Below, piece by piece: positions 10,129 to 10,570 of a stretch of DNA of 23,850 bases. Positions within the stretch are counted from its first letter, which is position 1. Every line of letters begins with the position of its first letter. The DNA is taken from positions 1 through 23,850 of the IMG/VR virus record IMGVR_UViG_3300027741_000265; one strand, written 5' to 3'. The notes under the pieces were generated by a model, which saw nothing but the letters and a program-made list of their open reading frames with translations, was not told the DNA's origin and did not search any database. Origin of the DNA: a virus. A program made the position numbers and the translations under genes.

Positions 10129-10421
10129 TACAAATCAGTAAAGGCTAGCACAGGCTAATGTCGTGTGCCCTAAACCTGGACCTCGGGTCGCAGGGACGGA
10201 ATCCTCTTCGCTGAAAAGAGTACTCAATCACTATCCTTGACAGGACGAAGATCGCCAATTGCCGCGGTTTGATTGTTTGAAGAAAAAGATAAGGCTAAAA
10301 AGACGTGCAAGCGATTGCACAGGTTCGCATATTTCGCTAGTATGTTATATGTAAACTGCCGTTGTAGATAAGAACGCAACTCGAGGTACCGGACAACCGC
10401 CTCTGTAATGTTGTAATACTA

Positions 10422-10494
10422 GTGACTGTTCCGAACTCGGATGAAGCTATCTTTGCCCTGTGCGGGCAAAGTGTGACTGAGGAATCTGGATGAA
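10422..10494 (+). repeat. Imperfect direct repeat flanking a hairpin inside the candidate RNA
   Basis: Two related blocks surround the perfect hairpin at 10451-10471. Copy one begins GTGACTG at 10422-10428 and reaches GGATGAA at 10439-10445. Copy two begins GTGACTG at 10473-10479 and reaches GGATGAA at 10488-10494. Both continue with (G/A)CT. The interval between the two anchors differs (10 versus 8 bases). It may be an internal duplication or repeated structural modules. Confidence 0.5.
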
Positions 10495-10553
10495 ACTGTT
10501 TCGCTTTAGCGTTCAAAGAAAACATGATTGATGAGCGAACAGCGAAATCAATA

Positions 10554-10570
10554 GATGTACGCAGTACATC
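10554..10570. repeat. Perfect hairpin directly after the stop of the small minus-strand gene
   Basis: GATGTAC-GCA-GTACATC is a perfect 7-bp inverted repeat. On the minus strand it starts one base after the TAA of the gene at 10571-10789. There is no run of T on either side, so it is not a standard rho-independent terminator. It could protect a transcript 3' end or be the last stem of the candidate RNA. Confidence 0.5.

Follow-up and report, generated by a model that had tools for sequence, protein, structure and literature searches.

A structured RNA of T4-like jumbo phages with a lineage-specific 5' domain and a conserved two-pseudoknot 3' core

GOLLD and ROOL form RNA-only cages, the use of which is not known, and are often encoded near tRNA islands, while OLE RNA dimerises, with a non-canonical A-A stem linking the subunits, according to the parts of PMC12286853 that concern these RNAs. 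A further motif, Polynucleobacter-1 (Rfam RF01718), is tabled as 'Burkholderiales, fresh water/estuary' in Weinberg et al. 2010 (PMC2864571).

Here, we analysed a virus record of IMG/VR with a length of 23,850 bases (the window, i.e. the whole stretch of DNA under analysis), which stems from a T4-like relative of jumbo phages. Its capsid protein shares 71% identity with that of Sinorhizobium phage Phosso, 69% with that of Vibrio phage 2.275.O and 67% with that of the Pseudomonas PA5oct/Paride group; the portal protein and its PA5oct counterpart are about 50% identical. An earlier note on this DNA had proposed a large structured RNA in a gap between two genes; it was right about the kind of RNA and wrong about two of three long-range helices and about the lack of a known family. 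We are highly confident that the gap holds one RNA of about 430 nt, composed of a lineage-specific 5' domain (here RF01718) and a conserved 3' core that combines two pseudoknots, nested helices P7/P8 and matched repeats flanking a hairpin, and that this RNA is one member of a family in jumbo T4-like phages, other members being RNAs of about 650-800 nt at three to five copies in cultured phages. The earlier note mentioned neither the two-pseudoknot core nor the pair of direct repeats, nor the homologues that cultured jumbo phages carry in several copies.

Locus, known family and fold in freshwater phages

As had been described, the RNA occupies a gap between converging genes (10129-10570; Table 1) without a credible open reading frame (ORF); the sole listed ORF of at least 60 aa comprises 62 aa on the minus strand and is unsupported. 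The 3' hairpin of the RNA touches the stop codon of the downstream gp26-like gene. The upstream SegE-like neighbour is commonly labelled 'NAD synthetase' in records; upstream of this GIY-YIG gene, a radical SAM protein (PF04055) is encoded at 8092-9663, and 6453-7559 encodes what, judged by eye, is a CxxxCxxC-type relative.

Table 1 Features of the RNA and its flanking genes in window coordinates
Feature	Position	Strand	Evidence
Whole structured RNA	10137-10573, ends approximate	+	end-to-end alignment of 52 gaps and 101 diverged relatives
SegE-like GIY-YIG protein gene, upstream neighbour, outside the RNA	9700-10128	+	PF19835, E 2.2e-34
Small convergent gene ('gp26-like' in the earlier note), adjoining the T4_baseplate gene at 10786-11637	10571-10789	-	without Pfam/PHROG match
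5' domain, RF01718 Polynucleobacter-1	10143-10278	+	cmscan 118.5 bits (cut-off 37), E 3.6e-27, model positions 1-141 of 141
P1 hairpin; loop 10154-55 pairs back with 10144-45	10148-52/10164-68	+	498/505 cells canonical, double changes in 5/5 pairs; 10150/10166, 10144/10155 significant
P2 hairpin	10175-10194	+	10177/10192, 10181/10187 significant
P3 hairpin	10204-10220	+	428/464 cells canonical; 10207/10217, 10208/10216 significant
P4, enclosing P4a and P4b (10250-55/10264-69)	10225-30/10270-75	+	10227/10273, 10228/10272, 10229/10271, 10253/10266 significant
P5 GNRA-capped hairpin	10305-10320	+	10306/10319, 10307/10318 significant
P6 hairpin, opens the 3' core	10323-32/10347-56	+	889/959 cells canonical, double changes in 10/10 pairs; six significant pairs
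PK1 pseudoknot, P6 loop with strand after P7	10336-43/10416-23	+	768/808 cells canonical, double changes in 6/8 pairs; 10340/10419, 10341/10418, 10342/10417 significant
PK2 pseudoknot, GUUGU with ACAAC in the P8 loop	10361-65/10393-97	+	499/503 cells canonical, nearly invariant
P7, enclosing P8	10377-80/10410-13; 10383-86/10400-03	+	399/404 and 400/404 cells canonical; 10377/10413, 10378/10412, 10379/10411, 10384/10402 significant
Direct repeat 1, CUC-R-GAU-R-A-W	10436-10445	+	changes in concert with repeat 2
P9 hairpin between the direct repeats	10451-10471	+	727/808 cells canonical
Direct repeat 2, UCU-R-GAU-R-A-W	10485-10494	+	10439/10488 same letter in 101/101
P10 hairpin, weakest helix	10527-10552	+	300/451 cells canonical (66%); 10531/10548 significant
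P11 3'-terminal hairpin	10554-10570	+	663/689 cells canonical, double changes in 6/7 pairs; five significant pairs

Contrary to the earlier statement that the region matches no known family, an Rfam search placed RF01718 over its 5' part. Part of the RNA was thus known already: an orphan family makes up its 5' third, and the other two thirds belong to no Rfam family. No other significant match was obtained in the gap (search of 10050-10640, limit E 10), and the whole window, searched to E 5, gave RF01718 and RF02980 only, without RNase P RNA, SRP RNA or group I/II introns. ARAGORN reported no tRNA or tmRNA genes in the 23,850-base window or in five cultured-phage loci; together with the Rfam search, this agrees with the earlier judgement that the RNA is not a tmRNA, RNase P RNA, SRP RNA or group I/II intron. 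The covariance models of GOLLD and ROOL matched neither 10050-10640 (to E 10) nor 11 cultured-phage loci (to E 1), and the previous description as a large structured phage RNA in the size class of GOLLD and ROOL, assigned to neither, stands. The second Rfam match, the putative cis-regulatory RNA freshwater-2 (RF02980; 21475-21563 on the plus strand, 64.5 bits, cut-off 49.9), sits at the start of an ORF at 21486-22541. In the openly licensed literature, preprints not covered, we found no report of these RNAs, and text searches within PMC13282480, PMC7824862 and PMC5259590 did not turn them up.

Relatives were gathered by searching with both flanking proteins and a single DNA pattern, which yielded 280 loci including the window copy. 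From 66 distinct gaps of at most 800 nt, 14 were left out (13 diverged, one identical to the window), and a profile built from the remaining 52 matched 243 of the 280 loci; these loci overlap, with 186 distinct sequences among 238 long matches. Full-length sequences were available for 187 of the 243 loci, 118 of them not near-duplicates, and 101 were kept as diverged relatives after those longer than 500 nt or still similar had been dropped. A smaller alignment (A1) comprises 50 of these 101, approximately every second of the 99 that passed a length limit. A pattern scan of bacterial reference genomes, which is not a test of RF01718 alone in Polynucleobacter, produced five matches that we attribute to chance (best 8.9 bits; about seven expected by our own estimate).

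Both neighbours were present in the expected orientation in 187 of the 243 loci, and in 41 a neighbour was missing where the contig ends on that side. A detectable gp26-like gene was missing in nine loci and the GIY-YIG gene, despite room for it, in six. Wherever the gp26-like gene was present (209 of the 243 loci, window included), it converged on the RNA in all 209 cases, indicating that the RNA is no leader of this gene. In many loci, extra genes separate the RNA from one or the other neighbour; full-length copies of the RNA still measure about 430-520 nt.

Sequence conservation extends from approximately 10143 to 10570 and is strongest in the parts outside the Rfam model. RF01718 matched none of 20 loci with a diverged 5' part, compared to 20 of 20 other loci. 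A covariance model of the freshwater core at 10318-10482 (R1) detected 19 of the 20 RF01718-negative loci at E 3e-8 or better, locus L013 being the exception; the 3' core, and not the Rfam domain, is therefore the stable part of the family. Nor does RF01718 describe the whole conserved RNA, as conservation and covariation run on to 10570. Among 12 freshwater contigs of 50-347 kb, all 12 contained exactly one R1 match and 11 one RF01718 match. One contig, of a 345-kb freshwater phage (G001), lacks ORFs of at least 75 aa at 200.8-202.7, 227.8-240 and 297.1-298.9 kb (L378-L380, L382); these stretches could be tRNA arrays or further RNAs.

Covariation was assessed with a home-made procedure that resembles R-scape and is not R-scape itself, employing a G statistic, background correction and 20 null alignments in which parsimony-inferred substitutions were shuffled. 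Pairs with an expected false count of at most 0.05 were called significant, and pairs canonical in at least 85% of sequences were called canonical. Among the 101 diverged relatives, 45 pairs were significant, 32 of them canonical; the 13 below 85%, like four of 25 in the cultured phages described below, comprise repeat couplings, helix neighbours and misaligned stems. On A1, 93.4% of cells of the freshwater core pair, compared to 80.3% after shuffling and at most 47.8% after sliding. G-U occupied 613 and A-C 116 cells of the paired columns, indicating that the plus strand is the RNA. The check proposed earlier, covariation versus unconstrained divergence, thus came out in favour of an RNA. Three of the helices in Table 1 had been predicted in the earlier note: P4 (canonical in 601 of 606 cells, with double changes at four of six pairs, 101 relatives), the GNRA-capped P5, which is hard to align (463 of 584 cells, double changes in five of six pairs), and the 8-bp stem P9. 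Two proposed long-range helices did not hold: 10180-88/10379-87 is canonical in 547 of 827 cells (66%) and its arms are used by other, well supported helices, and 10372-77/10509-14 reaches 194 of 436 (44%), its 3' arm lying in a stretch missing from many relatives. PK2 shows rare compensations in freshwater loci L006 and L049. The columns flanking P4a, 10234/10246, read U..C or C..U in all 101 relatives, a non-canonical combination with significant covariation.

Homologues in cultured jumbo phages

Searching named phages by blastn with the freshwater RNA gave no real match. The link to cultured phages surfaced only via synteny and covariance models: Erwinia phage pEa_SNUABM_19 has, at the corresponding spot, a gene-free gap of 803 nt, which is similar by blastn to sequence in 31 phage records, including 121Q, PBECO4, GAP32, CBB, Munch and BF. 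These loci are annotated with nothing or with small hypothetical ORFs only, and no Rfam family was found in the 11 loci searched. The small hypothetical ORFs that overlie the conserved RNA in L293, L295, L298, L299 and similar records are probably spurious. With respect to the same baseplate gene, the core RNA lies on the same side in 11 of 12 cultured records viewed.

An alignment of 34 of 40 distinct cultured copies yielded 25 significant pairs, 21 of them canonical, and 96.4% of cells of the core pair, compared to 74.3% after shuffling and at most 45.5% after sliding. PK1 joins the hairpin loop to the strand that directly follows P7 (canonical in 192 of 192 cells of the 34 copies), CCGUUGN pairs with NCAACC in the P8 loop (PK2, 170 of 170 cells, covarying), and P7 around P8 is followed by two direct repeats flanking a G/C-rich hairpin. 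PK1, P7, P8 and the repeats are significant in both the freshwater and the cultured set, PK2 only in the cultured set.

R2, a covariance model of the core derived exclusively from cultured phages, recovered the core in 13 of 25 selected freshwater loci; these were its 13 best matches (E 2.3e-4 to 0.4), and matches off the core in the same 25 loci begin at E 0.64. On four whole freshwater contigs of 221-347 kb, the core was the top match in three (E 0.06-0.18) and was missed in the fourth. In the reverse direction, the freshwater-only model R1 gave its best matches in cultured phages at the cultured core, at the weaker E-values of 0.049, 0.19 and 3.6. The E-values alone are suggestive; we consider homology established since the shared locus and the shared topology add to the model matches.

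Neither R1 nor R2 matched a core in Paride, Phosso, Vibrio 2.275.O or Atu_ph07, and R2 had no match in XacN1. A 15.3-bit match in Paride (E 0.13) falls in AT-rich sequence and is not trusted. At the same syntenic spot, Paride has a gene-free stretch with only tiny ORFs (234248-235591; L288:12249-13592) that is more than 99% identical in 11 records of the PA5oct group and partly similar to places at 117 and 171 kb; it is possibly another multicopy RNA, matched by neither model. The corresponding place in Phosso (L289, approximately 7760-8770) is devoid of genes over about 1 kb next to an RNase HI gene and appears hairpin-rich by eye.

According to R2, the group including SNUABM_19 carries five copies in eight of nine genomes and four in 121Q, all on one strand within each genome. 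The variance of the gaps between copies is below random in the nine genomes (P 0.0001-0.002 in seven, 0.02-0.03 in 121Q and XaC1), which amounts to approximately one observation rather than nine because the genomes are related. RaK2 and K64-1 contain three strong copies each, with three weaker matches each (E 0.03-0.7) not counted, and the gaps in RaK2 are uneven (approximately 184, 88 and 73 kb). Upstream of 32 of the 34 cultured copies we found TATAAT, preceded by TGRRAC at a distance of 15-20 nt in 23 of the 34. This motif pair resembles the second promoter class of CBB, tied to DNA-synthesis genes in the part of PMC5259590 that treats it. Upstream of the freshwater copies inspected, no consensus promoter was evident.

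Matched direct repeats

The two direct repeats within the core change in concert. Positions 10439/10488 read G/G in 62 and A/A in 39 of the 101 freshwater relatives and changed together on 21 branches of the tree and alone on none; the corresponding counts are six and zero for 10443/10492 and eleven and four for 10445/10494, giving 38 branches together and four alone in total. Same-letter coupling at three sites is also seen in the cultured copies (five branches together, two alone). Throughout the 101 relatives, the repeats disagree in their first three letters. Gene conversion was ruled out as the source of the matched repeats, since it would have levelled these differing flanking letters.

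But why should two stretches of one RNA be kept identical at variable sites? One conceivable reason is a trans-acting regulatory RNA or sponge, in which the repeats are seeds for a phage or host RNA or a regulator and are presented by the fold; several copies would then increase the dose. However, copy 2 of SNUABM_19 differs in its repeat variant from copies 1, 3, 4 and 5, while the repeats still match within each RNA. With paralogues of one genome carrying different repeats, a single common trans partner is not expected, and we regard a sponge or regulator as unlikely. The repeats would be explained best by a structural contact, direct or shared, inside the RNA or an oligomer of it. The same-letter coupling on the one hand and the multicopy, co-oriented and fairly even layout on the other should each surprise specialists in RNA or phages.

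Proposed function and comparison with known systems

By analogy with GOLLD and ROOL, we tentatively suggest a trans-acting structural RNA particle, a homo-oligomer or a complex with protein, in early-to-middle infection rather than a leader or antisense RNA; this is a real possibility, if short of probable. Family identity and trans-acting structural RNA taken together are the explanation that we, on balance, slightly favour. Trans action is preferred because the gp26-like gene converges on the RNA and because genes are inserted on one or the other side in many loci while its length holds. TATAAT motifs upstream of the cultured copies and the concerted repeats also speak for this explanation. 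For transcription, processing, trans action and assembly we infer the following course. In cultured phages, each copy would be driven by its own sigma70-like promoter; in freshwater phages, the RNA would probably be read through from the upstream gene and then released by processing. Made in early-to-middle infection, it would act in trans as a structural particle, alone as homo-oligomer or together with protein, and the two matched repeats would probably either form identical contacts or interact with one another, inside a single molecule or across molecules.

The layout of the cultured copies also invites a reading as RNA-primed replication origins, where a promoter and a structured transcript staying hybridised to the DNA would prime replication at each copy. 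Five co-oriented, fairly evenly spaced copies in eight of nine genomes, which are related and not independent, would suit such origins, and so would a -35/-10 type like the CBB promoter class tied to DNA-synthesis genes (PMC5259590, in part). Yet, GC skew reveals no switch other than that due to gene orientation at the SNUABM_19 copies or at the single freshwater copy, although recombination-driven replication could hide one; copy number falls to three with uneven gaps in RaK2/K64-1 and to one in freshwater contigs of 345-347 kb, and the heavy tertiary constraint seems beyond the needs of a primer. We thus consider origins of this type rather improbable. Similarly doubtful is the further-reaching idea of a new RNA superfamily that organises or initiates phage genome replication, with up to five evenly spaced co-oriented copies and repeats touching via parallel same-letter contacts; if true, covariation of identical instead of complementary letters would be of a kind for which standard tests are not built.

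A cis-acting element of a neighbouring gene, i.e. a leader, a 3' UTR stabiliser or a terminator, would account for the position of the RNA directly 3' of a plus-strand gene in freshwater phages and for the same-strand genes that follow four of the five SNUABM_19 copies, where leader action is conceivable. However, neighbours vary (inserted genes; GIY-YIG gene missing despite room in six of 243 loci) while the RNA persists, the gene downstream of the window copy runs towards it, and cultured copies have their own promoter-like sites, rendering a cis element very unlikely. Finally, a mobile element formed with the GIY-YIG protein, as HEARO RNA with IsrB, is hardly credible: the GIY-YIG gene lies upstream in 220 of 243 loci, a count biased by the 80 of 280 loci fetched through that very protein, but synteny is fixed and not dispersed, the RNA occurs without the gene in the six loci mentioned and, in the cultured records viewed, has endonuclease VII or other genes as neighbours, and SegE-type proteins are found in 504 of 50,697 phage records, none with a freshwater RNA recognisable by blastn.

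Returning to the favoured structural RNA, its likeness to known systems is partial in each case. ColE1 RNA II and the T4 origin transcripts are promoter-driven structured or origin transcripts. They resemble the RNA described here in so far as it, too, may be promoter-driven, and its several copies could mark origins, whereas it lacks a skew signal, varies in copy number and has no Rfam match to them. OLE RNA, which gave no match in our Rfam search, is not known from phages. It is likewise a large ornate RNA, and its A-A stem between subunits (PMC12286853, in part) bears a loose resemblance to the same-letter coupling seen here. The likeness to GOLLD and ROOL is that of large, pseudoknotted, phage-encoded RNAs; a conserved 3' and a less conserved 5' part are moreover common to it and to GOLLD as portrayed in parts of PMC12286853. 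The differences are the lack of an Rfam match, the absence of tRNA genes from the window and the multicopy occurrence at a fixed baseplate-gene locus. RF01718 is matched over its full model by the 136 nt at the 5' end, and the freshwater origin of the window agrees with the table in PMC2864571, which gives no phage assignment in the part concerned. RF01718 spans only about one third of the RNA and is devoid of the 3' core, which relatives retain without it. By our results, an orphan freshwater Rfam entry of 141 positions becomes the 5' third of a larger RNA whose core is conserved. Cultured phages with hosts such as Escherichia coli, Salmonella, Cronobacter, Klebsiella and Erwinia share this core, among them Escherichia phage Sharanji, for which E. 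coli K12 MG1655 is given as host, so that the role of such RNAs becomes testable in laboratory strains.
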